DNA of 62,293 nt, taken from the IMG/VR virus record IMGVR_UViG_3300042691_046511, positions 1 to 62,293 of that record; one strand, given 5' to 3'. The position numbers and the translations under genes are program-made. Positions 8,247 through 30,600 of this stretch are shown here, piece by piece. Positions within the stretch are counted from its first letter, which is position 1. Every line of letters starts with the position of its first letter. This DNA is from a virus. Under the pieces are notes generated by a model. The model searched no databases. It saw nothing but the letters and a program-made list of their open reading frames with translations, and was not told the origin of the DNA.

Positions 8247-8250
8247 ACTA

Positions 8251-9932: not shown

Positions 9933-10003
9933 ATGACCCAACCTACCGAATGATTATCGATACTGACAGCGCGAGCCGATAGCCTCGCTGTACTCACCCA
10001 TCA

Positions 10004-13000
10004 TTACGGCGTCCACCGCTGTCCCAGGCGAGCCGTGCGCAGCATCGCCCAATCCAGTTGCACGTTGCGCGCGGCCGCCGTCTGGGTCTCCACGAACACG
10101 CCGAGGGTCGCCATCGCCGTGGTTGGCAGGTTCGCCGAGTGCGTGAAGATCACCGTGTCGTTCGCGACGAATGCCCAATTACCGTTGGTCAATCGGACCG
10201 CTTCCAGGAGATCCCACTCATTGTTCGTGATCGCCACGCTGCTCGTGTTCGTCGTGCTCGTGCTGGCGGCACGCGTGACCGTGCGCCAATTCGCGTTGGT
10301 CGCGGTGTCGAACTCGAAGAAGATACCGTCGCTCCCGAGCGCGGCCACCGTGCCGTCGCCGAGATCCACGCCGAGGCCCACCTTGATCCGGTTCGACGTG
10401 TTGTCGGTCGTGCGCACGAGGAAGCCGAAGTACCGCACGTCCTGGAATGGGTAGATGTCGTCGGTCGCCGCGTTGCCGAGGTGTAGGCGCGTGTCGTTGC
10501 CCGACGTCGATCCCGTCACCAACTGGATGATGCCGGGGTGCGCCGCGACACTCGCCGGGCTCGTCGAGGCCGCCGTGCCGTTGGCCGTTGATCGCCAGCT
10601 CCATGTGCCGACCGTCTCGCCCGCTTCCGTGGCCGTGCCGGTGCCGTTGACGCCCGAGAGAAACTCCTCTTGATACTGCTGATAATCGACGTCGACGACG
10701 GTGCCTGCCTCGTAGGGGCTCGCTAGGAGCCGCCACCGTGACGACGTCGAGTCGTAGAGCAATGTCGCGATGTCGCCCGGCCACAACCAGATCCGTCGCG
10801 CACCGAGAATGAAGCGGTTCCCAGCCGTCGAACCCGTGTTCTGGTCGCGCAGGATGACCGGCCCCTGCGCCGTCTCCAGGACGATGAGTGTGAGGATGCG
10901 CCCATCCGCGCCACCGGCAATGCCCGTGATCTGACGGACATTGTCCGTGTCGATGCGGATGACACTACTGGTCGCCAGCGACGTCGGGGACCAGTCGTTT
11001 TGATCGGCGGTGAGCTGGGACGGGGAGATGTCGCCGGACAGCGCGACGTTCTCGGACGCCGTCAAGCCTGGCACGACGAGGTTCGCGCCCGCGAGCGTCA
11101 CGACGTCGCCCGCTTGCGTCAGCGTCGCATCGCCGTTGTCCCAGTTGATGACGCCGCCTTCGGCCAGAAAAATGTCTGACCACTGCAACGCCGTCGTGCC
11201 GAGTGCGCCGGTGTCGGTCGTCACCGGAGACAGCGCGCCGGTGTCACTGATCGCGATGGTGCTGTTCTGGATGTCAGTGCCGGAGGTGCCGTCGTAGCGG
11301 GCGATCGCGTTGTCGGTCACGGCGCCTGAATCGACGACGGTGCCGCCGCCAGCGGGGCCGGCCCAGGTGCCATCGGCGCGCAGGAAGTTCGTCGTACCGC
11401 CGCCACTCGCCGGCACGATGCCCTGCACCGTGCTGGTGAACGGTGCCGTCAGGTTCGCGGGGTTGCCGGCGCTGTCCATCGCGAGCACTTCACCACCCTC
11501 GCAGTAAACGTCGCCGCCGTTCGTCAGCGTGCCCACTGGCGCCGTGCCGTTGAAACATCGGTACGTGAAGGTGCCCTCAGTCGTGCCACGCGCGGCGGTG
11601 CCCCCCAGCTTGACGATACCCGGGCTCGTCACCAAGAGACGGCCGGAGCTGCCGTACTTCAGATTGAGCAAGTTGACCGTGGATCCCGTCGTCACCGTGT
11701 TGACCGTATCGGCTTCGAGCAGGTTGATGGTCTTGCTGGTGTTGGATCCACCAAAGTTCAGCGTGGCAAGCGCGCTGATGACGTTCCACTCACGAGCGGT
11801 CGTCGTGTTCGTGCGGAAGATATTCTGCACGTCCGCGCCGAGCGTAGCCCCGTCAGGGGCGTCGTCGTTGCTAGCGTCGAAGCCGTAGACGCGCAGACCA
11901 AAGCCGTCATTGCCGGATGGGGACAGCCCGCCGACGATGAGAAGCTGGCGCTCGAACACAGGCAACGACGATCCACTCTGCGTGAAGAAGACCGTTTTGC
12001 CGCCCCCACCAAAGTTGTAGTTCCACAAGGCCATGCGGTTCAGCACGAAGCCGCCGGCATTCGTCCAGTTGCCCTCGTTCAGCCAGGAGTACGATCCGGC
12101 GAGATTGCCACTGGCGTCGCTCGCGTGGTAGTCGAGGAGGCCGTTGAAGTAGTTCGAGGGCGTGCCGCTGGTGTCGATCTGGGACACGATCCCGATGTAT
12201 GTCTGATTCCGCTCCGTGCCACCCCAGAAGTTGCCGTATCCATCGGGACCGCCCGCGACGACGTTCCCGAGGTTGAACTGTATGCGCGCTTGTGGTCTGG
12301 ACGGCTGCTCCGGGAAGAAGAAAAAGTCGTCCGTGCCATACGCCTGGAAGTTGGCCGCCACGTCGAGGCGTGTCGCCGTACCAAGGGTGAGGTGGGGGCC
12401 ACCTTGAATCGTGACGGCTGCGGCGTCGATGGCGAGGTAGTTGATGCCCGTCGATGTGCCGCCAATCGGCGTGGTCTGGAACTCGATGCGCGAGCCTCGG
12501 CCGGTCGAGGTGAAGTTTTCGAGCGCCGACACACGGATGACGGCAGACGTACTACCACCAAACGTCGCGTCGGTCGAGTCATCTGCCGCCTGCGCGCCCC
12601 AGAATTGCAGGTTGCCGAGAATGTCGTTGGTCTGCACACGACGAGGCGCGGAGAGCGTGTTTCTTGCGCGGCGGTAGCGATAGATGGATTGCGTGGCACC
12701 ATACGACGTGGCATAAGTCGTGTAACCAGATCCGTCCGCTAGGAGGTCAAGCTGCACAGCAGGTGAGGCCGTGCCCATCCCGAGGCGGTTGTTGGTGTCG
12801 TCCCACGTGAGCAGCCCGCCATCGACGGACAACGCAAGGAACTTGCCGAGGTTGATGTCGGTGATCGTCTTGGCCGTGAACGTCGAGACCCAGTACACCT
12901 TGCCGCCGGTATTGTGTGCGACATCCGACGTACCCTCCTGCGCACGAGTCACGGTCAGTGAGTCAGTGCCGAACCCCGCGGTCGCCCTCATGACCTCGTA

Positions 13001-13252
13001 ATTCGGGTCGCGTGCGCCGGTCGCGTCTCGACAAGCTATTGGGTAGTCCGTTGTGTTGCAGACCGTCAGGTTGAACGCCGTGCTAGGCAGCGTGGCCCCG
13101 CAGCCCGTGTTGACCGTGATCGTCGTGGCACCAGCGGCAAAGCCTGTGACGACGCACGATCCGACATTGGTCAGGGCGTCCAGTTGGGCGGACGCTGACC
13201 GGGGCCACGCCAGGAGGCCGGCCACACACAGGAAGAGACAGGCTCGTCGCAT
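10004..13252 (-). CDS. Large tail-fibre-like protein with an N-terminal Sec signal peptide (1082 aa)
   Basis: The ATG at 13252 has a GAGG site; a GTG two codons earlier is possible. Residues 1-~24 (MRRACLFLCVAGLLA...SASAQ) form a textbook secretion signal. A phage-type N-terminal domain follows (~25-140, with YEVMRATAGFGTDSLTVTRAQEGT), as in many tail appendages. A long Gly/Thr/Asn-rich fibre-like middle comes next. The last ~200 residues resemble a concanavalin-type jelly roll (FFEFDTATNANWRTVTRA). It is likely a receptor-binding fibre or an exported adhesin. A signal peptide is not expected on a virion protein assembled in the cytoplasm. Confidence 0.8.
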   Translation of the reverse strand: MRRACLFLCVAGLLAWPRSASAQLDALTNVGSCVVTGFAAGATTITVNTGCGATLPSTAFNLTVCNTTDYPIACRDATGARDPNYEVMRATAGFGTDSLTVTRAQEGTSDVAHNTGGKVYWVSTFTAKTITDINLGKFLALSVDGGLLTWDDTNNRLGMGTASPAVQLDLLADGSGYTTYATSYGATQSIYRYRRARNTLSAPRRVQTNDILGNLQFWGAQAADDSTDATFGGSTSAVIRVSALENFTSTGRGSRIEFQTTPIGGTSTGINYLAIDAAAVTIQGGPHLTLGTATRLDVAANFQAYGTDDFFFFPEQPSRPQARIQFNLGNVVAGGPDGYGNFWGGTERNQTYIGIVSQIDTSGTPSNYFNGLLDYHASDASGNLAGSYSWLNEGNWTNAGGFVLNRMALWNYNFGGGGKTVFFTQSGSSLPVFERQLLIVGGLSPSGNDGFGLRVYGFDASNDDAPDGATLGADVQNIFRTNTTTAREWNVISALATLNFGGSNTSKTINLLEADTVNTVTTGSTVNLLNLKYGSSGRLLVTSPGIVKLGGTAARGTTEGTFTYRCFNGTAPVGTLTNGGDVYCEGGEVLAMDSAGNPANLTAPFTSTVQGIVPASGGGTTNFLRADGTWAGPAGGGTVVDSGAVTDNAIARYDGTSGTDIQNSTIAISDTGALSPVTTDTGALGTTALQWSDIFLAEGGVINWDNGDATLTQAGDVVTLAGANLVVPGLTASENVALSGDISPSQLTADQNDWSPTSLATSSVIRIDTDNVRQITGIAGGADGRILTLIVLETAQGPVILRDQNTGSTAGNRFILGARRIWLWPGDIATLLYDSTSSRWRLLASPYEAGTVVDVDYQQYQEEFLSGVNGTGTATEAGETVGTWSWRSTANGTAASTSPASVAAHPGIIQLVTGSTSGNDTRLHLGNAATDDIYPFQDVRYFGFLVRTTDNTSNRIKVGLGVDLGDGTVAALGSDGIFFEFDTATNANWRTVTRAASTSTTNTSSVAITNNEWDLLEAVRLTNGNWAFVANDTVIFTHSANLPTTAMATLGVFVETQTAAARNVQLDWAMLRTARLGQRWTP

Positions 13253-13266
13253 ACCCACAACCTCTA

Positions 13267-13283
13267 GCGCCGAGGAACGGCGC
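13267..13283. repeat. Hairpin GCGCCG-AGGAA-CGGCGC upstream of the fibre gene
   Basis: A perfect 6-bp inverted repeat with loop AGGAA lies 15 bp upstream of the ATG of the signal-bearing fibre gene. A near copy (GCGCCGAGGAAGCGC, 18660-18674) lies upstream of the other large signal-bearing gene, at 18585. The rest of the 13253-13363 gap shows no gene. Confidence 0.4.
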
Positions 13284-13363
13284 CGAAGCTCCGGGCGGCT
13301 CTGCGAGCGGAGTCCGTCATAACGGAGCGCACCCGCGCGTGCCGGAGTCGTGCTGACTGACGT

Positions 13364-13480
13364 CTACTCCCCGTGGCCCGTCGCGCCACTTTGCGCGTTC
13401 AGCCACCTCTCCCATGCCGCCAACGCCTCACGGATCGCTCGGATGAGACCACGGTGAAACGCAATGGTGGACGTCGACAC
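13364..13480 (-). CDS. Very small protein (38 aa)
   Basis: A GTG at 13480 has an excellent GAGGAGG site 6 nt upstream. It opens a 38-codon frame (STSTIAFHRGLIRAIREALA...). The product is predicted to be one amphipathic helix with a Trp pair (AAWERWL). It fills most of the gap between two tail genes in the same direction. Function unknown. Confidence 0.6.
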   Translation of the reverse strand: MSTSTIAFHRGLIRAIREALAAWERWLNAQSGATGHGE

Positions 13481-13504
13481 CGCGGCCCTCCTCACGTCTC
13501 GCGT

Positions 13505-13882
13505 CTAGCCGGCGACTGTCGCCAGCGTGCCCGTCGGCACGCCAAGGGTCGTGTGCTGATGCACCGTCACTGGCGGCAGTGGTACGTTCTGCATGCCTGG
13601 CACCAGCCATACCGGCTCGATCCAGCAGAAGTTGACCACCTGGCCCACTTCGAGGCGCTGTGGACTCAACGCCGTCATCCTGGCGAGATCAGGATCGCAC
13701 CAGTGGATCGTGAGCCATGCCGCGTCGCCGGCCTCCGTGACGGTGAACTGCGTCGGGCCGGTGGGCCAGAATTGGCATGACCGCCCGCCGCCACGTGGAG
13801 TCACCGCGGCCCAGACGGTCGTCCAGGCGAGCAGGTGATGCTCGGCGTCGAGTAGGCGCACGACGAACTTCTCGATCGTCAT
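13505..13882 (-). CDS. Hypothetical phage structural protein (125 aa)
   Basis: The ATG at 13882 lies a few bases after the stop of the upstream gene. The sequence is beta-rich with many tryptophans (TTVWAAVTP, WLTIHWCDPD) and ends in a Val/Thr/Pro-rich segment. This suits a small virion or fibre-accessory protein. No family is recognised. Confidence 0.7.
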   Translation of the reverse strand: MTIEKFVVRLLDAEHHLLAWTTVWAAVTPRGGGRSCQFWPTGPTQFTVTEAGDAAWLTIHWCDPDLARMTALSPQRLEVGQVVNFCWIEPVWLVPGMQNVPLPPVTVHQHTTLGVPTGTLATVAG

Positions 13883-13886
13883 CGCC

Positions 13887-14336
13887 TCACGCCAGAGTGA
13901 GGACGCCCGCGGCGTTCATCTGGAGCGTCAGGCGGTTGCCTGACGAAATCGAGAACTGCGAGGTCGAGAGCTGCGATCGGCAGAGCAGTTTCCGGCCCGC
14001 GGTGGCGGCCGCAGAGAGCCACAGGACCGCGAACTTGATGTTGGAGATGGTGCCACCGTTGGCTGACCAGAACACGTCGTCCATGTCGAACTTGTACTGA
14101 CCGGCCGAAGCGCCGACGGTCCAGACCTCGCCGGTCATGGCCTTGCCCGACGACGAGTAGCCGTTCGCCTCGGTGACTTCGTTGGTCACCTGCGCGTAGG
14201 TCGACAGCGTCGCCGTGTTGGCGTTCGAGGCCGACGTGTGCAGCGTCATGCGGTACACCGTCGCGGCCAGACTGATCGTGCCGTTCCCGATGTATTGCTT
14301 CGCCTTGTTGTAAACCGCCCAAGCGCCGACTGCCAT
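13887..14336 (-). CDS. Putative phage structural protein (149 aa)
   Basis: The frame runs from the ATG at 14336. The sequence (AVGAWAVYNKAKQYIGNGTISL... ending TLQMNAAGVLTLA) is typical in style of small phage virion or decoration proteins, with beta strands and Ser/Thr/Asn-rich loops. It is coupled closely with both neighbours. The exact role is unknown. Confidence 0.75.
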   Translation of the reverse strand: MAVGAWAVYNKAKQYIGNGTISLAATVYRMTLHTSASNANTATLSTYAQVTNEVTEANGYSSSGKAMTGEVWTVGASAGQYKFDMDDVFWSANGGTISNIKFAVLWLSAAATAGRKLLCRSQLSTSQFSISSGNRLTLQMNAAGVLTLA

Positions 14337-14342
14337 AGTGGG

Positions 14343-15194
14343 TTACTCCTTCTCGATGGTGTAATGCACGTTCGCGTGAGCCGTGAGGGCGTAGGCCAGC
14401 AGCCCGTCCCCATGGAAGTTGAGCAGGACCTGCTCGCCGTGCGTCCGGATGAAGAGCACGAGGTCCTCGAGCTGCTTCACGTGCCACGGCGCGACCCAGA
14501 AGTCACGCGGCGGCACGGTGCTGTCCTTGGCCTCGATCGTAAGCCGGTAGTGCCCGTCGCGATCGTTCTGCGCCTGCGGATAGGCGTGATGCGCGTCGCC
14601 CATCCAGCACGAGTCGAGGCCGAAACACTCAAAGCGTAGGAACCCGAGCGTGCGCAGCAGGGCGATCGCGCGGGTGCCGACCGTCGTGCCGCCCGGCACG
14701 CCGACCCACTGCCCGAGGTAGTAGGCGTTCAGCTCGGCTTCGAGCGCGTCGTCGCCACCGGCGTGCCAAATCGCGACGAACGGTCGATCGCCGAGCGCGT
14801 CCCAGGTCTCCGGCGCGCACTGCGACGCTACGTAGTAGCGGCAGTCCGGCACCGGTGGCCCGACCAGCGCCGCCGATGCCGGCCGCGCGTCCAGCAGCAC
14901 GTGCGCTTTCGGCTGCAGGTTGTGCTCGAGGCACCACCGATACGCGCCGTTCAGCGCCACGAGCTTCGCCCCGGCGAAGACCAGGTCGCGCAGCTCCGGT
15001 AACGTCGCGGTGAGCGACGGGCCTCCGCCGACCAGGACCACGCGGTGTGGGTTCTCGGCCGTCGGCCAGATCTGCGGATAGCCGCGGCGGATGGCGCGGC
15101 GGACGTTGGCCAGCAGCATCGCGTCGGACGTGTTCACGTCGCCCGCCAGCGTCAGGCCGTCGAAGACCGGCGATGTCTCGGTCGTGGGCGTCAT
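14343..15194 (-). CDS. MptE-like (DUF115) protein (283 aa)
   Basis: The ATG at 15194 overlaps the methyltransferase stop (ATGA). The motif VVLVGGGPSLTATLPEL followed by LVALNGAYRWCLEHNLQPKAHVLLDARP is that of the 6-hydroxymethylpterin pyrophosphokinase MptE-like/DUF115 family. That family includes motility-associated (Maf) glycosylation proteins. In phages such genes usually sit with tail or surface-modification genes. Together with the coupled methyltransferase it may modify glycans of the phage fibre or of the host surface. The substrate is unknown. Confidence 0.75.
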   Translation of the reverse strand: MTPTTETSPVFDGLTLAGDVNTSDAMLLANVRRAIRRGYPQIWPTAENPHRVVLVGGGPSLTATLPELRDLVFAGAKLVALNGAYRWCLEHNLQPKAHVLLDARPASAALVGPPVPDCRYYVASQCAPETWDALGDRPFVAIWHAGGDDALEAELNAYYLGQWVGVPGGTTVGTRAIALLRTLGFLRFECFGLDSCWMGDAHHAYPQAQNDRDGHYRLTIEAKDSTVPPRDFWVAPWHVKQLEDLVLFIRTHGEQVLLNFHGDGLLAYALTAHANVHYTIEKE

Positions 15195-15820
15195 CCGCGC
15201 GGCTCCAGCAGGAACGTGGCCGCGGCCCCGAGGTCGCGCGCGTCGCTCACCCGCGCCAGCTCGCGCAGGTCCCCAAGCCATTCGTCGTAGCGCCGCACCG
15301 AGAGGTGGAGTGGATGACCGACCCAGACGCCCATGGCGTCCGGCACGAGGCTGATCGATAGGAACACCCGCTCCGCGGCCGCGAGCAGCTGCGCGACCAC
15401 GAGCATCGTGAAGGTTGGCGGGATATGCTCGAGGACGTCCGTGCAGTAGGCGTAGTCGAAGCGCGCGGGCGCGTCGATCCGGTCGCGGAACGCGCGCAGA
15501 AGCGTCGCCGCGGCGCCGGAGACCGACGGGCCCGGCAACGGCCGCCAGAGCGATACGGGATGATACATGGGCAGCCCGATCTGCCGCACCTCTGGCACCA
15601 GGCCGACATCCGTGAGGTCGCACCCTGCGACACGGAAGCCGCGCGCGTGCAGGGCCAGCATCCCCTTGCCCGTGCCGCAGCCCGCGTCAAGCACCCGGGC
15701 GCCCGAGTGTGCCAGAGACGCGAAGAGGTCGGCATAGCGCTCCCCTGGGCTGTAGGTCCCGTATTGCGGCAACGCGAACGCGTCTTCGTAGGTGGCGGTC
15801 TCTCTGGCGGTGAGGTGCAT
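15191..15820 (-). CDS. SAM-dependent methyltransferase (209 aa)
   Basis: A class I methyltransferase fold is supported by motif I (VLDAGCGTGKGMLAL, ~residues 42-56), the acidic end of strand 2 (VAGCDLTD) and motif IV (YAYCTDVLEHIPP). The ATG at 15820 has only a weak ribosome site. The gene is coupled to the MptE-like gene downstream. There is no DNA-methylase (DPPY/NPPY) motif, so a small-molecule or glycan target is more likely than DNA. Confidence 0.8.
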   Translation of the reverse strand: MHLTARETATYEDAFALPQYGTYSPGERYADLFASLAHSGARVLDAGCGTGKGMLALHARGFRVAGCDLTDVGLVPEVRQIGLPMYHPVSLWRPLPGPSVSGAAATLLRAFRDRIDAPARFDYAYCTDVLEHIPPTFTMLVVAQLLAAAERVFLSISLVPDAMGVWVGHPLHLSVRRYDEWLGDLRELARVSDARDLGAAATFLLEPRG

Positions 15821-15843
15821 CGCTGATCTCGCGTGAGGTGACC

Positions 15844-18585
15844 CTACTGTCCGCTCGGAACTGGCTCGCAGTACCACGCGACAATCACTGGTACAGGGAC
15901 CGGTATGGCACCGACCCGCGACCATGTCGCCCGCAGCTCCCACTGTCCAAGGGGCACCACCCGTGACACCTTGTAGGGCGTCGTGATGGCGCGGGCGCCG
16001 TGGTTGGTCCACGTCTCCTCGCTCGCTTCCTTGCGTTGGTACTGAATACCCCAGCCAGGCGACCCGTCAGGCGGGCCGCTCGCTGAACCGACGAGATTGC
16101 AGCTCCGCGTCGAGCCGGTCGCCGTGATGCTGAGCGTTGGTCCTGTGCTACACGCGCGCGTCTGTGTCTCGATCGCCGTGGTGCCGACCGGATAGCGGCC
16201 GGTGAACGTGCAGGCGCGCCCGTTGGTGCCGGACGCCGCGACCGTCGTGGTCCAGGTGCGGCGGCGCCTCTGCGCGCCCTCGACGCACGCGCCCCACCCG
16301 TCCGGCGGTGCCCCAGGCCCCCAGGCGCCGGCCGTCTCGACGCAATCGACGTCAGTCGGTGGCGTCACGTCGCCTACCGCGGCACGAATCTCCTTGAGCT
16401 TGACCGCGCTGAGCCACGTCCGGAGCAGATAGCCGGAATGGCGAGCGGCTTCGCCGGTCGTGCCGGTCGCCGGGTCGCCACCGGGCAGATACGGATCGCT
16501 CGTCGGCGTGTAGCCGCCACCACTGCCGGACAAGTGGACGCCGTCAGACGAGATCAGCGTCCCCGCCCAGGTGCCATTCGGCCTCCGCGCGTCGATCTCC
16601 GCATAGAGGTCGACGAGCGGCACGCTGAGCCGCTGTGCCAGCGCCCGAAGCGCCGCGTTGTACGGCTTGGTGATGGTGTCGTCGTAGCCAGCACCCACGC
16701 GCGGCGGCACGGTCGTCAGGATCGAGTTGATGCCGGCCGCGCGGTACTGGAGGATGCGCCGCTCCACTTCGGCCACGTCGCCGGGGTTCGGATCGGGCGT
16801 ATGAAGCTGCCACACGACGTACTGGGCGTCCTGCGTGCGCGCGTCGGTGAGCAGGCTATCGATGACGGGCGACTGCCAGCCCATGCCGCCGTTCGCCGTC
16901 ACCGCCTGCCACGAGAGGTTCCAGCCGTTCGAGGCGTCATTGGCGGTCGTGTGCAGCCACTGGAAGGTCGCCAGGTCACTCGTCGTCGCGCCAGCTGGCG
17001 CTGCCTCACGCGCCCACGTGCCATAGGCCGCCGAGTAGGTCATGCTGTCGCCGACGTGCAGCACCTTGCCGGCTACCTTCGGCCCGCCCGCCTTCAATGT
17101 CGCCTGCGCCATCGCGACCCACGCGCTCTGCCATCCGTCGTCGTAGCTGTTCGCCCTCGTCTCCGTGTCGGGGTTCGTCGGTGGCGGTTGCTGGCTTCCC
17201 TCGCGCGGGAAGCCGGAGAAGACGTCGATGCCGCGGCCAGGATATAGCTCGCGCACGAGGTAGTGCATGCCCGTCAGCGAATTGAAGACGGCGCTTCCCG
17301 TCCAGCCCACGCCGAACGCGTCGTTGCTCGTCGGCATCGTCTCGACCGCATACGGGTCGATCTCCCACGCCTTCTTGCGGCCGGCCTTTACCTCGACCAG
17401 CTCGGCGAGGTCGTAGAGCAGCCGCACGAAGATGTACGGATAGCCCTTCGGTCCTTTGTAGGCTGGGTGATCGCTCAAGCTCCAGCACCACGGCACGTTC
17501 TCAGGGCTCGGGTTGATCGCGTCCGGGTACGGCGTCCCGTGCTTGCTCTTGTCGGTCGTCGCGTAGCCGTAGCAGGTCGGTCCGAGCGATTCGCGCGTGA
17601 GTACGACCAGCGTGCGCGTGCCCGGCGCGATGAAGGTGCCGCCGGACTCCTCGCTGCCGTTGTAGTAGTACGGATGCGTCGGGCTTCCGTAGCGGCCCGC
17701 ACAGACGGGGATGTCCGCGCCCGTCGCCGGGTCTCGAAACGGACAGCCGAGCAAGAAGTGCATCGGGAATCCCGGCGTGCCGACGTCCTTCGACCAGAAC
17801 GTCGTGAAGGACGACCCGGCACTCGACCGCGAGATGATCGACGAATAGCCGGCGCTCACGCCGAGGTCGCCGCCGAGCATGGCCTGCCATTCAATCGGGA
17901 TGCGTGACTGATCCCGCATCACCAGCCCGTTGCGGATCTGCCCTTCGACCGGGCCGGTCAGTTGCGACAAACTCGGGCCGACCCACCAGGTACGCCGCTG
18001 CGTCCCCAACCCCGCCGCGTCGTACGTCACGTACCCGTTGACGATGTACCGGCCGCCCTTGTGCGACACGCCCCCGAGCAGCGGGAAGTACGCGCCCGGT
18101 CCGGCAATCCCGTCCATCGCCGCCAGCGTCAGGCCCGTGCACGGCGCGATCTCTTTCGACATGCCACCAATGGGGGGCACCGTGCCACGCCAGATCATGC
18201 CGCGCCCATCCTGGTTCACGGACTTCATCCGGCAGCCAATGAGGATCTCGCTTCCGTCCTCTGAGAATCCCGCAGCCCCGGCGCCGTATTCGATCTGCGC
18301 ACCGAGGCTGTCCATCGCCGGGATGTAGATCCGCCCGGCAAACGCGATCTGGCTTGTGTCCAGCCGCGGGAACGCACACGGGCCGTCGGTGCGACCTGCG
18401 CACGGATCCACCGTCGCGAGGCGCCGCGGCGCAGGGCGGACGACCGGCTCCAGGGGGACCGCGTTCCGCCGATCCCCGAGGGGATAGGCCGTCAGGGGGA
18501 TGGCGGAAGGCGGCGGCTGCTGGGCGGTGCCGGGCGCGACGGCCAGGCCGATCAGCGTGAGCAGTGCGAGAATCTTGCGTGTCAT
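15844..18585 (-). CDS. Secreted or tail-associated SGNH/GDSL hydrolase (913 aa)
   Basis: The ATG at 18585 has an AGGAG site 10 nt upstream. Residues 1-~22 form a Sec signal (MTRKILALLTLIGLAVAPGTA). Residues ~75-470 are beta-rich with repeated G/D turns, possibly a propeller. An SGNH hydrolase domain spans ~505-735, with the nucleophile in HVGDSMT (Ser514) and the catalytic pair in DGVHLS (Asp681, His684). A Cys-containing beta C terminus follows. The domain probably removes acyl groups from a surface polysaccharide. The export signal is unusual for a tail protein. Confidence 0.8.
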   Translation of the reverse strand: MTRKILALLTLIGLAVAPGTAQQPPPSAIPLTAYPLGDRRNAVPLEPVVRPAPRRLATVDPCAGRTDGPCAFPRLDTSQIAFAGRIYIPAMDSLGAQIEYGAGAAGFSEDGSEILIGCRMKSVNQDGRGMIWRGTVPPIGGMSKEIAPCTGLTLAAMDGIAGPGAYFPLLGGVSHKGGRYIVNGYVTYDAAGLGTQRRTWWVGPSLSQLTGPVEGQIRNGLVMRDQSRIPIEWQAMLGGDLGVSAGYSSIISRSSAGSSFTTFWSKDVGTPGFPMHFLLGCPFRDPATGADIPVCAGRYGSPTHPYYYNGSEESGGTFIAPGTRTLVVLTRESLGPTCYGYATTDKSKHGTPYPDAINPSPENVPWCWSLSDHPAYKGPKGYPYIFVRLLYDLAELVEVKAGRKKAWEIDPYAVETMPTSNDAFGVGWTGSAVFNSLTGMHYLVRELYPGRGIDVFSGFPREGSQQPPPTNPDTETRANSYDDGWQSAWVAMAQATLKAGGPKVAGKVLHVGDSMTYSAAYGTWAREAAPAGATTSDLATFQWLHTTANDASNGWNLSWQAVTANGGMGWQSPVIDSLLTDARTQDAQYVVWQLHTPDPNPGDVAEVERRILQYRAAGINSILTTVPPRVGAGYDDTITKPYNAALRALAQRLSVPLVDLYAEIDARRPNGTWAGTLISSDGVHLSGSGGGYTPTSDPYLPGGDPATGTTGEAARHSGYLLRTWLSAVKLKEIRAAVGDVTPPTDVDCVETAGAWGPGAPPDGWGACVEGAQRRRRTWTTTVAASGTNGRACTFTGRYPVGTTAIETQTRACSTGPTLSITATGSTRSCNLVGSASGPPDGSPGWGIQYQRKEASEETWTNHGARAITTPYKVSRVVPLGQWELRATWSRVGAIPVPVPVIVAWYCEPVPSGQ

Positions 18586-18659
18586 GTTCGTGGCGCTCCT
18601 TGTGCACGTCCGAAGTCGTTCGAGAGGCCGGGCCGCGCCATCCCTACACACACTCCGCA

Positions 18660-18674
18660 GCGCCGAGGAAGCGC
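18660..18674. repeat. Near copy of the AGGAA-loop hairpin
   Basis: GCGCCGAGGAAGCGC repeats most of the hairpin at 13267-13283 and lies in the 136-bp gap upstream of the SGNH hydrolase gene. Nothing else in the gap looks like a gene. Confidence 0.35.
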
Positions 18675-20424: not shown

Positions 20425-20849
20425 GACGTCACCTCGCCATCAGTCACGAAACCGTGCCAGCCGCAGCCTCTCGGTGGTGTCCGGAGAATGCTCGGTCTGA
20501 GCGTCAGTGTCTCGAACGTGTCGCCGATGCGCTCCCATTGCGCGCCCGGCCGAGGGTCGTGCGGCGGCCCACCGTCGAGCGGGTTACGGAAACCGACGAA
20601 GACGCGGAGGTAGAAGTCTTCATCCTTTTTCCCAGTGCGTTTCGTGGTGCATGGCGCGCACGGACACAGGAACGACAGGCCGACACCGGTTCGCTCTGGG
20701 GCTGGGGCGTACTCGAATCCTTCGCCATGGCACCGCTGACACTCGCCTGCGTTTTCCCCGTTGCAGGCCGCGCAGAGTCGATCGGTACGCGAGTAGACAC
20801 CCTCGCCACCGGCACCGACGAATTGTGGGTCGAGGTCCGTCAAGCGCAT
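20418..20849 (-). CDS. DUF6527-like protein (143 aa)
   Basis: The N terminus MRLTDLDPQF and the C terminus (FETLTLRPSI... CGWHGFVTDGEV) match the DUF6527 pattern often seen in phage genomes. Inserted between them is a Cys-rich segment (CAACNGENAGECQRCHGEG), like a DnaJ zinc repeat, and a further CPCAPC. The ATG at 20849 has a GGAGG site and overlaps the preceding stop. Function unknown; a metal-binding role is likely. Confidence 0.75.
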   Translation of the reverse strand: MRLTDLDPQFVGAGGEGVYSRTDRLCAACNGENAGECQRCHGEGFEYAPAPERTGVGLSFLCPCAPCTTKRTGKKDEDFYLRVFVGFRNPLDGGPPHDPRPGAQWERIGDTFETLTLRPSILRTPPRGCGWHGFVTDGEVTSC

Positions 20850-22471
20850 CAGACCCTCCGGTAGACGCCAGCCGCGAACGCGCCCGCCGAGACGTGGGCC
20901 ACGCGCTCGACGCGCACTTCGGCCTGCCGCTGATAGTCCCAGCCCTCGGGCTCAGGGAAGAGCACCGAGTACTCCCGACACCCGAACGCACGCCACGGCC
21001 CTCGGCCGTCGTCGATGTGCCGCTCGACGTCGCGGACGTTGTCCGTCGGCGCCCAGGCATCGCGCCAGTAGTCGCCACCCGCGAGACCGTGATGGCCCCG
21101 CCACTTCGCCCCGGTCAACATCGGGAAGGCGTCCAGGGCGGCCATGAACGCGGTGATACACGCGACGGTCTCCGGCTTTGGGAGGGTGCCATAGAGACCG
21201 CCGTCGAAGTGGAAGCATGCGTTGTACTGACGCGACCGCGAGACGGCCCCGTACGCGAACGCCACCGACGGCGAAGGTTCCTCCGCGACGCCGGTATCTC
21301 GCCGCGCTTCCCCGAAGTTGATCGGCTCCCCGCTCACGAACGGCATCCGCTTGGCGACCTCGTGTTGGTCGATGAGGGCGTACTCGCCGGTGCGCTTGAC
21401 CCACTCGAACCCCCGCACGCCGGTCAACCGATCAATATGGGCATCGCAGAAGTCGAACGGCTCACGGGCGAATGTGGTGTCCTGGTCGTTCGGCCCATCG
21501 ACGGCCCCGGCGCAGAGCAGTGTGTCGGGCGCCACGGCCTTGACCTGGTGGCCGAGGCTGATGATCTCGGCGAAGCTCTCGCGCATCCCGATCTGGCCAG
21601 GCTCGTTCGCCAGCTCAAGGACGACGTGCGGCTGCGAGGCGAGGCGCTGCGCGCACTCGACGGCGAAGGCTTCGCCGCCCGCCCTGACGCTGCCGCTCCA
21701 CACGTCCCGTCGGTCCGGATACCAGACCCCGCCCCAAGGCTCGGTCATGTTGATGAGTGAGGCTCGACAGTAGAGCCCCACCTCGGCACACAGTGCCATC
21801 GCGAGGTCGAGCGCCGCCCAGAAGCCCTCACGGTCCGGACGCGCGATGTACGGCGGGATCGGGTTCGTGACGAACACCCGCACGATCGTGAAGCCGGCGG
21901 CCTTGTGCCAGCGCAGGAGGTCGCGCGCCGGCTCGATCTGCCCAGCCGCCACCATGCCAACCAGCGCAAAACAGGACACCTCGCGCCAGTCGAAACGGCC
22001 GGCCTCGTGCGCGAACCACCGCCGGTTGCTCTCGACGCGGAGACGCGTGAGGGCGACCGGTGACGGCGTCGTGGCGCTGAGCAGCAGCTGGGACGGCACG
22101 AACGTCTCCCACGGCCCAGGACTGGAGTACAGCCGGTCCGCCGCGACCCCTCCGCCGCCCCCGTTCTCGGCTGCGACGAATCGGCCGTGCGCACTCTGGA
22201 GCCCGATACCGGCCGCGTCCGTGAAGAGCCGGAACCGCTCCCACGGACCGACGACAGTGCGGTTGGCAACGAGCTCGCCGTCGATTTCCGCGCAGAGGTA
22301 CCGGCCGTGGGCGCTCTTTAGGGCTACGTCCCCGCCCGGATAGTGTTCAACGGTCCACTCTTCCCACGGTCCCACGGCCGTGCGGTTCGCGATGACCAAT
22401 CCCTCGGGCTCGGCACACAGGTAGTGCACGCCGTCCCAGGTTCTGAAGCTGACGTTCGTCTGCGTCCCCAT
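20849..22471 (-). CDS. Putative depolymerase: beta-trefoil repeats plus glycoside hydrolase (540 aa)
   Basis: The ATG at 22471 has an AGAGG site. Residues ~1-127 hold three repeats of H-G-R/H-Y-(L/V)-x-A-E...VGPWE, typical of a fascin/ricin-like beta-trefoil that binds sugars or proteins. From ~140 on, the sequence fits a GH5-like barrel, with the acid/base Glu290 in VLELANEP and a likely nucleophile Glu382 in FVSGEP. It probably cleaves the host surface glycan. A strong terminator hairpin lies just upstream, at 22509-22555. Confidence 0.7.
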   Translation of the reverse strand: MGTQTNVSFRTWDGVHYLCAEPEGLVIANRTAVGPWEEWTVEHYPGGDVALKSAHGRYLCAEIDGELVANRTVVGPWERFRLFTDAAGIGLQSAHGRFVAAENGGGGGVAADRLYSSPGPWETFVPSQLLLSATTPSPVALTRLRVESNRRWFAHEAGRFDWREVSCFALVGMVAAGQIEPARDLLRWHKAAGFTIVRVFVTNPIPPYIARPDREGFWAALDLAMALCAEVGLYCRASLINMTEPWGGVWYPDRRDVWSGSVRAGGEAFAVECAQRLASQPHVVLELANEPGQIGMRESFAEIISLGHQVKAVAPDTLLCAGAVDGPNDQDTTFAREPFDFCDAHIDRLTGVRGFEWVKRTGEYALIDQHEVAKRMPFVSGEPINFGEARRDTGVAEEPSPSVAFAYGAVSRSRQYNACFHFDGGLYGTLPKPETVACITAFMAALDAFPMLTGAKWRGHHGLAGGDYWRDAWAPTDNVRDVERHIDDGRGPWRAFGCREYSVLFPEPEGWDYQRQAEVRVERVAHVSAGAFAAGVYRRV

Positions 22472-23570: not shown

Positions 23571-25784
23571 CTACGCCTGGAGGAGGCCGCTCAGGGTCAC
23601 CGTGAGACCATCCAGGTCGACATCTACCTGGTCGACGATGACCTTGGCGCCGACGTAGCCTGTGGCGCCGAGGCCCTCGACGTGGTCCAGCCCAATCACG
23701 GTGCCGATGTCGATCTGCGTACTGCCCTGCTGGAGGCCCTGGAGGCCCGTTGAGATGCGGACGCCGACGGGCCCCTCGAGGACCGACGACGGGCCCACCG
23801 CCCGTGCCAACACGCGCGCGGCGAGCACATCCGCCGTGGCTTGGTCCCGCACCCCATACAGGTCGAGGTCGAGGTACTCTTCGCGGCCGTTGTTCTGGGT
23901 GATCGCCGTCGTGTTCTTGACGGTCTGAAGACCTGACACCCAGTCGGCGTGCTCGTGTACGGACTTCGCCGGCATCGGCTGCCCCTGCTCCCCCTCGAGC
24001 TGCGTCGCCACCGGCGGCACGTAGCGGTAGCCGTAGCGGTAGCGGACCACGTTGGCATACCCAGACCGCTGGAGCGTGCTCGTGATACTCAACGCGTCGT
24101 GTTGGTCCGTGAGGGTCACCGCCGCGGCCGCGGCGGGGTTGTCGATCGTGAGGATGATCTGCCCGTGGCGGTTCTCCGCGAGTTTCAGGTCCCACGACGA
24201 CGCCATCTGCTTGACCGCTTCGAAGAGTGTCATCTGCTGGCCATTCTGACCAATCAGGTGCGCGGCCTTGACCGCCCCCCCGGAGACCAGCGTATCCGTG
24301 TAGGTTTTCACCGCCTCGATCGTGGTCGTGTCGAAGAGCGAGTACGCTCCAAAGGTCGGCACACCAAACCAGGCGCCGGTCTTGTAGGTGTTCTCGACGA
24401 AGTTCGTCCAGAAGTGCTGCACGATCCGCGAGGGCGCGTCGATCAGGGCACCCGTGGCGTTCCCGACATCCTCGATCCCCCGGAAGTTCCCGGACATCGT
24501 CATACGCCCCTCTCGAAGCGCCTTGGCGAAGCGGTGGCTATTCAGCACGGCGACGGCGTGGTAGCGGTAGCCGTTGTAGTCGACGTACTTCGCGGTCGTC
24601 CCCGTTGCGGTCGACCAGCCCGGCTTGTGCGGGTCGATCAGGATCTGGCCAAACGCACTCGACGGGACGACGTAACGCAGCGTGGGGTCGTCCACGCCGA
24701 TGTTCTTCCAGGTGACCGAGCCGTCCCCGAAGGTGGCCCCGATGGTGGTCGAGAACGTGGGCGCGCTCCCCCCGGATGTCCCGGCGGTCACACACTGGTA
24801 GAGGTAGCCGTTGCTCGCCAGGTTCGGCCGGATCCGATCGCCCACCAGGTACGCCGTGCTCGAGGTCCACGCCGCCGGGGTGACGTAGAGGTTGAGCGTG
24901 TCCTGGACCGCATGACCGAAGAAGATGAACCAGTCGACGACGACGTTGAACGCGCCGCCGCCAAAGATGTCCTGCAGGTTCGTGGTCCCGACGAAGATCC
25001 CGGGCACGACGCCCTGTGGAGCCGTCGCGCTTTCGTCCTCGAGGAGTCCATAGCCGATCGGTGGCGACCAGCCGTCTCGATACCGCGCGTCCATGAACGG
25101 CAGTTCTGTGGCCGTGAGTCGGTTGGGCGGCACTTTTACTTCTGATTGCAGACGGCTGATGTGCCGACTCAACATGCCCTCGACCGTCAGCCCGTACTGA
25201 AAGTCGCCCAAGGGCGCGTAGTCGGTCACCAAGCCGGCACCCACGCGGTACGGTTGGACCGCATTCAGGCGGTCGACGTGGTCGACCAGATAGTCGGACC
25301 ACTTCCGCCCTCGGCGCTGCGTGGTGCCCCACGAGGCGCGGAAGTAGCGGTCGGTGTCGTCGAAGACGACCTGCCGCGACGCGCCCTGAATCCCCCCGCC
25401 GGGCGTCGTGGCCTTGCGCGTGATCGCGCCGAACGAGAGGATACGGCGCTCCTTGAACCCGCCGAAGTACGTGGACGGATCCGCGAACGGGCCGCCCTCG
25501 ACTTCGCCGAACGCCTCGACGATCGTGCCGTCGTCGACTTCGTCGAGTACGCCGAACGCCTGTGGGGTCGTCGTGACCAGGGATGCCGCGGTCGGGTTGG
25601 TGCCGCTCGTGCCTCCACCGCCCGTCTGGTAGTTCGGGACGAGGACTTCGATCGCTGACTGCGACACACGCATCGGCGTGACTGGGCCGGCGAGCACCTC
25701 AATGACGCTCTGCGAGACGCGGACTTTGGACGAGGCGTCGGCGAGGACCTCGATCGCGGTCTGTGAGACGCGCGGATTCGCCAT
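23571..25784 (-). CDS. Tail tip/baseplate hub-like protein (737 aa)
   Basis: The N terminus carries three tandem copies of RVSQ(S/T)xIEVL, frequent in phage tail-tip genes. The body is long and beta-rich, as in siphovirus tail hub proteins. Around residues 305-365 sits a WTSSTAYLVGDRI... GYLYQCVTAGTSGG... WKNIG segment of the carbohydrate-binding (CBM5/12-like) type common on tail tips. It follows the tape measure and two distal tail genes. It probably contacts the cell surface. Confidence 0.75.
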   Translation of the reverse strand: MANPRVSQTAIEVLADASSKVRVSQSVIEVLAGPVTPMRVSQSAIEVLVPNYQTGGGGTSGTNPTAASLVTTTPQAFGVLDEVDDGTIVEAFGEVEGGPFADPSTYFGGFKERRILSFGAITRKATTPGGGIQGASRQVVFDDTDRYFRASWGTTQRRGRKWSDYLVDHVDRLNAVQPYRVGAGLVTDYAPLGDFQYGLTVEGMLSRHISRLQSEVKVPPNRLTATELPFMDARYRDGWSPPIGYGLLEDESATAPQGVVPGIFVGTTNLQDIFGGGAFNVVVDWFIFFGHAVQDTLNLYVTPAAWTSSTAYLVGDRIRPNLASNGYLYQCVTAGTSGGSAPTFSTTIGATFGDGSVTWKNIGVDDPTLRYVVPSSAFGQILIDPHKPGWSTATGTTAKYVDYNGYRYHAVAVLNSHRFAKALREGRMTMSGNFRGIEDVGNATGALIDAPSRIVQHFWTNFVENTYKTGAWFGVPTFGAYSLFDTTTIEAVKTYTDTLVSGGAVKAAHLIGQNGQQMTLFEAVKQMASSWDLKLAENRHGQIILTIDNPAAAAAVTLTDQHDALSITSTLQRSGYANVVRYRYGYRYVPPVATQLEGEQGQPMPAKSVHEHADWVSGLQTVKNTTAITQNNGREEYLDLDLYGVRDQATADVLAARVLARAVGPSSVLEGPVGVRISTGLQGLQQGSTQIDIGTVIGLDHVEGLGATGYVGAKVIVDQVDVDLDGLTVTLSGLLQA

Positions 25785-25787
25785 CGG

Positions 25788-26864
25788 CTAGGCCGCGTGC
25801 TTTACGCCGAATTCAGCGCCGTCGACCTCTGAGGGTACCCAGGCTGCCGACGTGGCTGGAGACAGTTCCATGAGGTCGGTGATGTACCCGTAGCTGGTGC
25901 CGAGTGCCCGCTGCGTCCCCAGATAGTTGGTCGACCCGATGCGCACGACACCCGTGGCGTCGCATCCCGTCGCGTCGGTCTTCTTGACGTAATTGTGGAG
26001 ATTCAGTCCATAGATCGTCCCCACCGACCCCAGCGCCGCGAAGGCGTAGGTGTCGATGTTCCCGACCGAGGTGGACTCGTTATAGTCCGTGTCGCCGTTG
26101 GGCGTGGCGTCATCGACCATCGCGCCGTTGTCCGTGCCCGTGGACGGGGTGAACTGGCCCAGCGCGCCATCCCCGGATGAGGCCACGACGGCCACCGCTT
26201 TGACATCGCCGAGCCGCGTCGTCACGGTGCCGCCAGACCCGCTCACGCAGTAGAGGTCGTCGAAGACGTCGGTGTTCGTGCCCGTCGTCATCCCGCCGAA
26301 TCCGAACGCATTGGAATAGGCGTTCGCGCCGCCCTGGGTGTCCTGCCCGGTGAGGTCGATCCAGTTCGTCTTTGACCCGTTGACGTAGACTTCGACGGTG
26401 CCGGTGGAGTTGTGGACTGTGACGACGATCTCGATGAAGTACCACGTGTTCGAGCTCAGCGTGTTCGTCGACGAGCTCCCGAGCTTCGTGCCACCGCTGT
26501 TACTGTTCAGCGCGCGCCCGTTGTAGACCTCCAGTTTCGCGGACGAGTCAATGGCGAGGCCGATGTTGACGTTGCCCGCCGTCGAGGGATCGCCGTCCGA
26601 CAGGGCCGCGATGATCCGACCCGCCGACCCCAGTACGTTCGTCGACCGAAACCCGAACCCGAGGATACGCGTTGCTGCGTTGCTGAGCCCAGTTTTCTTG
26701 ACGTAGGATGTCGCCCCCACATCGAGCGAGAGGCCCCGGCTTCCATTGCGGAACACACTGGTCTGAATCGTGGCGTTCTGCACTGTGGTGAATCGCGAGG
26801 TGATCCCGGTCGTGAGATCCGCGGTCGCGTAGTGGTCGAACCCAGTGAAGAAGTCGAGAGCCAT
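25788..26864 (-). CDS. Tail-associated lectin-like protein (358 aa)
   Basis: The ATG at 26864 has an AGGAG site 9 nt upstream. The first ~200 residues fit a concanavalin/LamG-type jelly roll (LSSNTWYFIEIVVTVHNSTGTVEVYVNGS). It ends 4 nt before the hub gene starts. Proteins of this shape are common at phage tail ends and may bind sugars. Confidence 0.7.
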   Translation of the reverse strand: MALDFFTGFDHYATADLTTGITSRFTTVQNATIQTSVFRNGSRGLSLDVGATSYVKKTGLSNAATRILGFGFRSTNVLGSAGRIIAALSDGDPSTAGNVNIGLAIDSSAKLEVYNGRALNSNSGGTKLGSSSTNTLSSNTWYFIEIVVTVHNSTGTVEVYVNGSKTNWIDLTGQDTQGGANAYSNAFGFGGMTTGTNTDVFDDLYCVSGSGGTVTTRLGDVKAVAVVASSGDGALGQFTPSTGTDNGAMVDDATPNGDTDYNESTSVGNIDTYAFAALGSVGTIYGLNLHNYVKKTDATGCDATGVVRIGSTNYLGTQRALGTSYGYITDLMELSPATSAAWVPSEVDGAEFGVKHAA

Positions 26865-26875
26865 GCGGCGCGCTC

Positions 26876-27658
26876 CTACGGGAAGAGTGGAGGACCAGAA
26901 CTCAGTTCTTCGGCCTCGATCGGGATCTGGGTGAATCCGAGTGACTGGGGCGACCACGAGAAGGACCCCGGCACGAACTGCACGTACATGGCGTCGTTCA
27001 CGGCGACGTCGTACCAGAGCAGCCAGGGGAACGTCTCGCCCTGCGCCTCCTCGAAATGGATGCGTTGACCGGCCTCCTCTGTTTGGGCGTCGATGACGGC
27101 TGAGACGCGACGGATGCGGATGCGCTTCGGGTACTTGAGGGGGGAGGCACCGAAGGTCTTGCCCGCCGTCTTCACGAGATACTCGGGCTTCACCGTGAGG
27201 CCCCATAGCCAGTTGAGGTCACGGATCGCCGTCAGGAGGAGCACTTCGCCGATCGCCACGTTGCCGAGCGCGCCGCCGCTGACCACGATGTCGAAGGTGG
27301 TCGAGGTGCGCTGGCCACTCGACGCCGCCGAGAAGTCGAGGATCGCATCCGTGCGCTGTCCGCCAGAGTTCGCGGCGATGGGAATGGTCTGGCTGAGCCC
27401 GCTGCCGCTCGTGATCGACACGCTCGTGGCCCCAGCGAGGTTGTGGTTGATGATCGCGACACCAACCAGGACTTGACTCGCGCCGAAGGTGGCGCGAATC
27501 GTGGCGGACGTGCCGGTCGCCTTGAACGGCTTCGCGGGGTTGCGATTCCCCACATTCGACGCGGGGTAGCCGGTCGCCGCCGCGCCGGACGTCACCGTCC
27601 AGGTCGCGTTCGGCGCGACGTCGTCTCCCGCTCGTGCGTACGCGGAGGGGCTAGCCAC
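26876..27658 (-). CDS. Distal tail protein candidate (260 aa)
   Basis: The GTG at 27658 overlaps the tape measure stop and has an AGGAG site 10 nt upstream. The N-terminal half looks like a galactose-binding/discoidin-type beta domain (ATIRATFGASQVLVGVAIINHNLAG). The C-terminal half is beta-rich and ends in a Pro-rich tail. Its position directly after the tape measure is that of the distal tail protein in siphoviruses. Confidence 0.65.
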   Translation of the reverse strand: MASPSAYARAGDDVAPNATWTVTSGAAATGYPASNVGNRNPAKPFKATGTSATIRATFGASQVLVGVAIINHNLAGATSVSITSGSGLSQTIPIAANSGGQRTDAILDFSAASSGQRTSTTFDIVVSGGALGNVAIGEVLLLTAIRDLNWLWGLTVKPEYLVKTAGKTFGASPLKYPKRIRIRRVSAVIDAQTEEAGQRIHFEEAQGETFPWLLWYDVAVNDAMYVQFVPGSFSWSPQSLGFTQIPIEAEELSSGPPLFP

Positions 27659-30600
27659 GCTTGGTCATCTCCTGCCGGAACACGTTGCGCGCGAGGCCTT
27701 CGATGAGCTCCCGCAACCCGAACGCGTTGCCGCTGATGCCGGCCGACGACGCGAGGTGCTGATTGATGGCGCCGTAGTCGAACCCGCCGGCCCCTTGGGC
27801 GAAGAGCACGACCGGGACGACCGTCACACCGCCCCCGCCTGGTCCGCTGGCGCCCGTGCCGACGCCCAGGCTCGCCAGGACATCCTTGAAGAAGCTCTTC
27901 GGCCCGCCGACCTCGGCCTCCCCGGCTTCGCCGAAGAGCACCAAGCCCGGTCGGTTGGCGTAGACGCCCTCCGCGGCGCCGCCTTCCACAATCGGGATCT
28001 CGCTATTACGCGTGCCGGTCGGCACGCCTGGGAGATCGCGGAGCGCCTCGCGCAGATCATCCACGGCGTCACGCGCGCGTTCGACATCGCCCCGCAAGTT
28101 GTAGAAGCCGCGCGACAGCGTGGCGACGCCGTCGCTTTCATCCGCCGTCCCCTCCACCCCCTTCGCGAGGTCGGCGGCGGAGTCCGCCGCGTCTGACAGT
28201 CCCTCATCGCTGGCGTCTGCGAGCGCTTCGGTTGCGAACTTCGCCTTTTCCAGGCCGGCGACCACGGCGGCGATCGCCGCTTCGAGGTCCTTCAGGGTCT
28301 TTGCGCTGACGAGGTCCTTGAAGAGTTGGCCGCCGCCGAACCCGCCGCCTTCGGCGCCGGAGAGCTTCGCGAGCTGGGCCGCGACGGTCAGGAACCCGCT
28401 GCCCTCGCCCGTGCCGCCGCTGCCAAACAAGGAGAAGAACTGATCGCGAACGTCGTTGGTCTTCTGCCCCTGCGACTTCCCGAAAAGCCCCCCGAAGAGC
28501 CCAGAGGCGCCGCCAATCAACGCGCCGATCCCCGTCCCCAGACCCGGCACGATGCTGCCGATCAGGGCGCCCGTGGCCGCCCCGCTGCCCGCCCCGAAGA
28601 GCCCGGACTTTAGGCCCGCGCCACCAAAGAGGTTCTGGAAGAGCAACCCGAGGCCGAGCCCGCCGGCGCCGGCGCCCACGCCCCCCAACAGCCCCGCGAG
28701 CCCGGCGCTGATGCCGGCGCCACCCGCCGGCAGGCCAAGGCCCGCCTGGGCAATGGCGGGGCTATTGAGCGGCGCCCCTCCGCCCAAGAAGCCGCCGAAG
28801 AGCCCGGCGCCTCCCGCGAAGCCAGGCGTCCGTGCGCCGCCGCCCAAAAAGCCGGAAAAGGCCGACGAGAACGCCCCTTGCTGACCACTGAGGGCACCGA
28901 CGACGCCCTTGAGGAACGAGTTGACGAACGTGCCGAGCAGGTCCGCGAGGATCTTCGTGACGCTCGCCTTGATCGAGTCCCAGATGTCGACAAAGCCGTC
29001 CTTGAATCCTTTCGCGCCAAGGAGCATCTGCGCGAAGGTGCCCTGCACGGCGGTGTTGAGCTGCTCCACCGTGCGCGTGATCGCCGGGAAGACCTCGGTC
29101 TGCCAGACGCTCGGGAGGCGACCGGTCGCCGCGCGTTGATCCTCGATCATCTGCGCGTACGCGGTCTTCAATTGGGCCGTCGTCGCCGTCCCGGAGCCGC
29201 GGAGGATCTCGTAGTTGCGCGCCGACTCCGCGGCGACATCGCGGAGCTGCTGCGGGGTCTTCAGTCCGAACTCAGCGTACGCCTTCTGCAGGTCCTCTTG
29301 TGCCTTGATGGCCTTCCGCACTTCATCGGTGTTGACGCGGTTGGCCTCGGTCACCGCCGCCTGCGCGGGGATGAACTGCTGGAAGTGGCGCACACCGTCC
29401 GTGATCAACCCGGCGCTTTTCGCCGCGGAGTCGAAGGACAGCTTGATCCCGTCGATGGCGAGGCCGCTCGCCTTGGCGCGCTGCTCGAGCTGCTGGAACT
29501 GCTCGTACAGGGCCTTCACCGCGGTGGCCAGGGCGGGTGTCGAAATACCCGCCGCCGTCTGCAACGTCTTTTCAAGCTTCCGGAGTTCCTCGTTGACCAG
29601 GGCGTTGGTGGTGATGCCCGCCTTCTCGAGCTCCTCGGCGTACTTCTTGTGCGCCTCGGCGGCCTCCCGCGCGGCCTTGTCCTGGTCCTTCAGCGCTTTC
29701 GTCTGGTCCTTGAGCCCGGACTTCAGCCGATCCACCGTCGTCTCGGAGAGGCCCACCTGCTTGGCCCAGGCATCGAACGCGTCGCCGTTCTGCTTGATGG
29801 CCTGCTGCAACTGCCCGACGGTGAGGCCCGTGTTCTTGATCTCGTCGCGGTACTTCTTCTCCGCGCCCGACAGCGCCTCGCGGAGGCCGGCCGTGTTGCG
29901 GATGGCCGCCTGGTGGCGCTCCTCGACTTCGACAGCCTTGATCTGCTCGTTGAACTGATCCCGGGTGATTTGCCCGACGGCAAGCTGCGCCTCGAGCTTC
30001 CGGCGCAGCGCCCCGGTGCTGTCGTTTGTGACGGCCGTGTTGGCGACCAGGACGCGGTTGTTGAACTCGATCGCGCCCGCATACGAGAGCACCTTCGGCG
30101 CGCCCGACGCGAACGCCCGGTTCAGCACATCTTGCTTCGCAAGCGCGGTTTGCTCGGACAGATCGGCGTAGAGCCCCAGGGACACCGTCAACTTGCGGAT
30201 CTGCTCGTCGAGGGCGAACGCCTCGGAGATCGCCCGGCCCAGGCTCCAGCCAGCGGCCGCCGCGCTCACGACGGCAAACGCGCTACCCAGCTTGCCCAGC
30301 TTCCCGAACGTCAGCCCGGCTTGCTCCCCGACGAGCTGAATGCCGGCCCTCGCATCCGCCAGCGTCGAGACGCCTTTGAAAATGGCGAGGGTCGACGCCA
30401 TCGACGATCCGAGCCCACCGATCGACGGAATGCCGAGCGCGGCGGCGGCGCGCATCGCCACCAGCGGCGTGACCACGGCGCCGACCGCGGCCGCGAGGGG
30501 CACCAGGACGTTGGCCGATTCGCCGGCGGCTGCGATGAAGGGCGTGAGCGTCCCGAGCGTCGCGGCCAGGGCCGGCTGTAGCGCCTTCCCGATCTTCTGT

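Follow-up and report, generated by a model that had tools for sequence, protein, structure and literature searches.

Tailed phages are taken to complete their assembly in the cytoplasm. Fibres and tailspikes of T4 and P22 attach to finished particles in vitro, so a late docking step is physically reasonable. To our knowledge, no tailed phage docks an exported fibre after lysis. Within the consulted portions of the openly accessible literature, preprints excluded, no tailed-phage fibre with a Sec signal was found described; the signals described there are those of Lom and of lysis proteins.

The protein of main interest here, P1, appears to be related to the tail fibres of Burkholderia Lessievirus phages (DC1, BcepIL02, BcepMigl and CSP3) and to the fibre of PDB entry 8jov, which carry an N-terminal docking domain of about 100 residues, as P1 does; the Lessievirus fibre genes, like that of P1, are located in the tail cluster in the phage records. 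There, the domain starts with the initiator methionine and no signal is present, whereas P1 carries a signal in front of the domain and four cysteines within it. Signal-bearing proteins of other kinds have also been described in phages. Lom of phage lambda, whose gene lies between those for the tail spike and the tail fibre, is an outer-membrane protein with a signal and is made in lysogens (PMC12309495). It resembles P1 in bearing a signal and in lying among the tail genes of a temperate phage; however, Lom is a beta-barrel outer-membrane protein, and P1 a predicted fibre with a docking domain. Similarly, the SAR or secreted endolysins Lys44 and JG068 gp47 are described as Sec-exported phage proteins (PMC6116005, PMC3765740), as is proposed for P1 and its companion P2, but these are lysis enzymes. 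An assignment of P1 or P2 as endolysin or spanin was rejected, as the PHROG and Pfam searches found no such domain in either.

Two signal-bearing genes at the end of a tail cluster

The window, that is, the whole stretch of DNA analysed, is a virus record of 62,293 bases, classed as linear and devoid of tRNA genes. Judged by its gene content, it is that of a temperate tailed phage, because PHROG matches identify the genes for integrase (6789-8126), portal (43252-44859) and capsid/protease (37170-39794), besides two that are terminase-like (44844-46421) and tape-measure-like. P1 and P2 are encoded where the tail cluster ends downstream, in the same orientation as the tail genes (Table 1). A search for relatives of the other genes of the window yielded five capsid loci in viral contigs and none in genome contigs, and no relatives of the 737-aa tail gene.

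Table 1. Features of the P1-P2 region and the adjoining tail genes
Feature	Position	Strand	Basis
P1, signal-bearing fibre-like protein, 1082 aa	10004..13252	-	
P1 Sec-type signal, residues 1-22	13187..13252	-	rule-based score, start-codon check
P1 mature N-terminal virion-docking domain (predicted), residues 23-136, Cys 33/51/65/74	12845..13186	-	homology to fibre N-domains and PDB 8jov; AlphaFold model
Shine-Dalgarno-like AGAGG before P1	13261..13265	-	sequence read directly
phrog_644 protein, putative	13887..14336	-	E = 4e-17
MptE-like (PF01973) protein between P2 and P1	14343..15194	-	E = 3.9e-11
Methyltransferase between P2 and P1, start ATG (MHLTARET)	15191..15820	-	Pfam Methyltransf_23, E = 1.8e-9
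P2, signal-bearing, 913 aa, SGNH-like domain, 14 Cys	15844..18585	-	
P2 SGNH/GDSL-like region, residues 508-689	16519..17064	-	Pfam match below cut-off; motifs
P2 Sec-type signal, residues 1-21	18523..18585	-	rule-based score, start-codon check
Shine-Dalgarno-like AAGGAG before P2	18596..18601	-	sequence read directly
FRG1/fascin-like and cellulase-like protein, unsigned, same tail-end module	20849..22471	-	
Upstream tail genes, same direction: tape-measure-like gene 27651-31373, phrog_2448 gene, 737-aa gene	23571..31373	-	

Several further genes of the window deserve mention. The methyltransferase and the MptE-like (PF01973) gene (14343-15820, minus strand) possibly encode fibre-modifying enzymes. 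P1 is followed by a gene (8355-9941, minus strand) for a 528-aa protein that lacks cysteine and is built of repeats such as GTLALTGPAPSL. Adjoining the integrase are two exported-looking genes on the plus strand, 5334-6032 and 6049-6552, whose products start with the lipoprotein-like MMIRHLSPVILACALFSGCGGSSSPTAPS and with MKTSLNVGIAPGGLLVIASVLAASACGA, respectively; they may encode surface proteins that lysogens express. Another signal-like start, outside the tail cluster, is found at 56668-57240 (minus strand), in a protein with four cysteines.

With regard to the signals, the N-termini read MRRACLFLCVAGLLAWPRSASA/QLD in P1 and MTRKILALLTLIGLAVAPGTA/QQP in P2, the slash marking the predicted cleavage, and each combines a basic n-region, a hydrophobic h-region and a small-x-small cleavage site. 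Signals were rated with a home-made, rule-based score that considers charge, hydrophobic core and cleavage site and is distinct from SignalP; P1 scored 11.55 and P2 11.62. A score of at least 11 was reached at 5 of the 1854 start codons of the open reading frames in the window, namely the two alternative starts of P1, that of P2, that of the 6049-6552 gene and that of one reading frame antisense inside P1, and at none of 9443 internal windows taken from 18 genes. As a check, the score was applied to 42 proteins of E. coli K-12 with lengths of 80 aa or more: yaaX, yaaI and NhaA reached 10.5, and LspA and CarB were added when the cut-off was lowered to 9. Of these, yaaX and yaaI are presumably small exported-type proteins, NhaA and LspA membrane proteins, and CarB cytosolic. 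Single calls near 9-10 are unsafe, since membrane and cytosolic proteins are picked at the cut-off of 9.

Both genes start with ATG preceded by a Shine-Dalgarno-like motif, AGAGG for P1 and AAGGAG for P2. No in-frame ATG, GTG or TTG occurs between codons 10 and 88 of P1 or between codons 1 and 59 of P2, and the signals are therefore not explained away by a wrongly chosen start. As the docking domain of P1 begins at codon 23, translation of the whole domain from any ATG, GTG or TTG must include at least part of the signal. The claim in the preliminary description that both giants begin with textbook export signals is thus confirmed by the scores, the Shine-Dalgarno-like sites, the ATG codons and the forced starts, and it is very probable that P1 and P2 are both exported.

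The docking domain of P1 and signals on related fibres

In tblastn searches, residues 23-136 of P1 resembled the N-terminal tail-fibre domain of Burkholderia phages that have been cultured (10 records, E from 2e-4 to 1e-2, with 2e-4 for BcepMigl and 6e-4 for DC1), and they also match a viral contig, L034. When P1 was aligned with ten related domains, all ten of the others started at the initiator methionine and lacked a signal, the 22-residue signal of P1 standing where the related fibres have that methionine. The contrast drawn earlier with ordinary tail proteins is supported, in that ordinary relatives lack the export signal. A profile of this alignment (11 sequences, P1 included) matched residues 3-97 of PDB 8jov, an entry of 18 chains named "Putative tail fiber protein", with E = 1.8e-31; we take this fibre to come from a podophage virion. 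An AlphaFold model of the docking domain was confident, with a pLDDT of 88.7. Foldseek returned no match to the model at E <= 0.001, the best being phage VP1 (3.3e-3) and the LKA1 tailspike gp49 (7.1e-3), so the docking-domain claim is carried by the sequence match to 8jov. Further along the protein, the stretch 742-843 aligns with annotated tail fibres from five phage records (H1-H5), and that around residues 670-740 with 32 viral loci. Taken on its homologies, P1 is a tail fibre with a virion-docking domain of the 8jov type, and its presence in virions is predicted.

Among the 32 loci that match residues ~670-740, 31 have an open reading frame and 27 a readable 5' end, and a signal was found in one (L028). 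A broader collection of docking-domain loci was assembled from three pattern scans together with L034, giving at least 224 loci (76, 76 and 72) that represent 193 distinct genes; in the first scan, 5 of 80 were removed because they lacked a convincing match to the domain, and the later scans left out loci that had been collected before. A clear signal fused at the start of the domain occurs in two of the 224 loci listed, L092 (junction MRKSMQRWLIVSLLSLVFCVPAHA/TID) and L129 (MGERMFKRLILGVLFVTLVSVSVSA/ALL). A third, L158, is a possible fusion only, its hydrophobic stretch coming after a long polar N-terminus. Other high-scoring candidates were rejected: in L103 the high score falls within the docking domain itself, the L110 protein is acyltransferase-like and membrane-bound, and L034 3047-5614 and L092 23-2692 are tape-measure-like with a hydrophobic stretch.

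The two clear fusions, both from IMG/VR, resemble P1 in that the signal is directly joined to a fibre docking domain and other signal-bearing genes adjoin, but neither shares the whole P1 body. The L092 body is like a pectin-lyase-type helix, with some tblastn matches to annotated pectin lyases, and its locus has a run of signal-bearing genes after the tail genes, the second and third of which were judged partly by eye. The L129 fibre consists of signal, docking domain and a C-terminus that we name S74-like. At L129:4908-8829 there are three consecutive signal-bearing genes, one of them the fused fibre; this run adjoins a capsid-like gene (named by eye) and does not follow the tail genes. In a tree of 119 rows and 115 columns, P1, L092, L129 and L158 fall in separate places, and the fused signal requires four changes, or three without L158. 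Given this and the clustering of P1 with the unsigned L034 and L050 (support 96/87), repeated gain of a fused signal appears likely, although the strongest branches of the tree are compatible with a single origin.

A more common arrangement than fusion is a short docking-domain gene followed by a separate signal-bearing neighbour. Already in the first set, a docking-domain protein of fewer than 330 aa was often encoded directly 5' of a signal-bearing gene. Counting distinct genes across all three sets, a signal-bearing gene comes directly next (gap below 60 bases) after 21 of the 91 docking-domain genes that are short and after 2 of the 66 that are long, with a p-value (4e-4) that is generous given the kinship among many of the phages. 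Several neighbours of this kind encode giant proteins of 769-1536 aa. In a domain scan of ten proteins, the L060 neighbour matched polysaccharide deacetylase and a giant next but one in L084 matched GH18; the other eight gave no match. In nine loci (L056, L058, L060, L064, L068, L077, L079, L080 and L081), from phages whose style we take to be Patescibacteria-like, the short gene is coupled to signal-bearing neighbours rich in Thr and Ser; the cysteine counts of these mostly giant proteins are 10-30 (2 in L058) and even throughout. Another signal-bearing giant, L059:1335-2900, has an S74-like end followed by a hydrophobic C-terminus that, by eye, is membrane-anchor-like.

Cysteine parity and the SGNH-like region of P2

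Proteins of oxidising compartments tend to have paired, hence even-numbered, cysteines. Parity was compared in complete open reading frames of the docking-domain loci from the first two scans, with a mature length of at least 180 aa and no further strongly hydrophobic stretch, which left 35 signed proteins (28 clusters) and 571 unsigned ones (326 clusters); P1 and P2 are outside this set, and the clusters may share domains and are not fully independent. With four or more cysteines, the number was even in 19/19 signed proteins (15/15 clusters) as opposed to 88/159 unsigned ones (59/105 clusters; p = 4e-4). The corresponding figures were 24/26 (20/22 clusters) and 174/343 (106/204; p = 2.4e-4) with at least two cysteines, and 24/29 (20/24) and 174/450 (106/262) with at least one. 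The fused L129 fibre, with three mature cysteines, goes against the pattern. Mature P1 has six cysteines, four of them in the docking domain, and mature P2 fourteen; of 76 related docking domains, none exceeds two cysteines: two are present in three of them, including that of L092, and at most one in the other 73. Even counts are expected of disulphide-paired exported proteins, and those of P1 and P2 are compatible with predicted disulphides. Such an even-cysteine footprint offers a cheap way to search other phage genomes for proteins of this kind.

P2 had previously been called an SGNH protein. In favour of this, it shares with SGNH/GDSL esterases the motifs G-D-S (residues 512-514) and D-G-V-H (681-684), corresponding to the catalytic serine and to the aspartate and histidine near the end of the domain. 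However, support for the earlier name is weak, as the match of residues 573-689 to Pfam Lipase_GDSL_2 (E = 7e-5, 23.8 bits) lies below the cut-off of 32.9. No GxND block was recognised by eye, and the large regions outside the SGNH-like part found no match in the PHROG, Pfam and relative searches. The best reading of P2 is a putative exported SGNH-like esterase. No docking domain was recognised in it, and an AlphaFold model built without an alignment was unusable (pLDDT 34). As no relatives with which to compare its signal were detectable in viral contigs, phages or genome contigs, the case for P2 is built from its own sequence and cysteine content.

Possible roles of the two proteins

We tentatively favour, at somewhat short of an even chance, a reading in which P1 is an exported tail fibre that is docked on virions after lysis and P2 an exported SGNH-type protein. 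Both would be Sec-exported products of the tail end of the late gene cluster, expressed late, the docking N-domain of P1 having gained a cleavable signal in place of the initiator methionine. P1 would be made in the cytosol and then exported with cleavage of its signal, its cysteines would be paired in the oxidising envelope, and it would meet and dock onto virions at cell lysis. The acyl-esterase-like domain of P2 would act on envelope or capsule glycans, or P2 would ride with the fibre. The preliminary description had suggested that both proteins may be secreted by infected or lysogenic cells, for instance to strip or mask glycans, or may be added to virions outside the membrane. The export part of this suggestion gains from the forced start, from the even cysteines and from the signals that other phages carry in a like gene context. 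With regard to roles, the retained docking domain favours addition of P1 to virions, and the enzyme-like domain favours a glycan-directed function of P2. Since the docking domain is kept behind the signal, docking after lysis is tentatively preferred to a non-virion role for P1.

It is also possible, although we consider it doubtful, that P1 and P2 are exported and never become virion parts, forming a moron-like pair that would bind or edit glycans in the envelope or capsule of an infected cell or lysogen, for example in a superinfection block, with the docking domain of P1 as a leftover. The lambda protein Lom offers a precedent for a signal-bearing, lysogen-expressed product of a tail-region gene (PMC12309495). 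The same reading is favoured by the exported-looking genes 5334-6032 and 6049-6552 near the integrase, by the deacetylase (L060) and GH18 (L084) matches of signal-bearing giants elsewhere, and by the combination in P2 of an SGNH-like domain with no recognised docking domain. It sits less well, however, with the docking domain kept in P1, L092 and L129, with the position of P1 and P2 in the tail cluster, and with the search for a promoter and terminator of their own, as expected of a moron: a weak scan of 8000-20500, limited to sigma-70-like promoters, found none, and terminator-like sites numbered 3 where 3.9 were expected. The earlier suggestion of expression in lysogens found no support in this promoter scan, within that promoter type.

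The remaining readings are less probable. That the N-termini are signal-like but unused, P1 and P2 being ordinary cytosolic virion proteins, would agree with the established cytosolic assembly of tailed phages and with the ten signal-free fibres of the alignment; it is unlikely, given that a single module holds both textbook signals, that the cysteines are even in number and that signals recur in other lineages. Anchoring of P1 in the membrane through its N-terminus, as a surface adhesin of the lysogen, appears more improbable still in view of its good cleavage site, even if the by-eye assignment of an S74-like end and a hydrophobic C-terminus to the L059 giant hints that anchored fibre-like relatives may exist. 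Finally, a linear virus contig is often a fragment, and the signal could in principle derive from another frame or from a joined host gene; such a wrong start or misassembly is very improbable, as no start yields the whole docking domain without signal, the Shine-Dalgarno-like sites are clear and the same kind of junction is found in L092 and L129.

Beyond this phage, it is conceivable, if doubtful, that some tailed phages export by Sec either the whole fibre or the portion lying distal to a short docking protein, with disulphide bonding within or outside the envelope and docking only at or after lysis. Alternatively, fibre-like proteins may be deployed on or around infected cells, for example as decoys or glycan editors. 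A signal placed before a docking domain makes the view of an entirely cytoplasmic assembly testable. If the proposal of export and late docking is true, there would be an extracytoplasmic last step in tailed-phage assembly, gained several times, and the completion of virion parts outside would allow disulphide-rich, host-processed domains to enter receptor binding.
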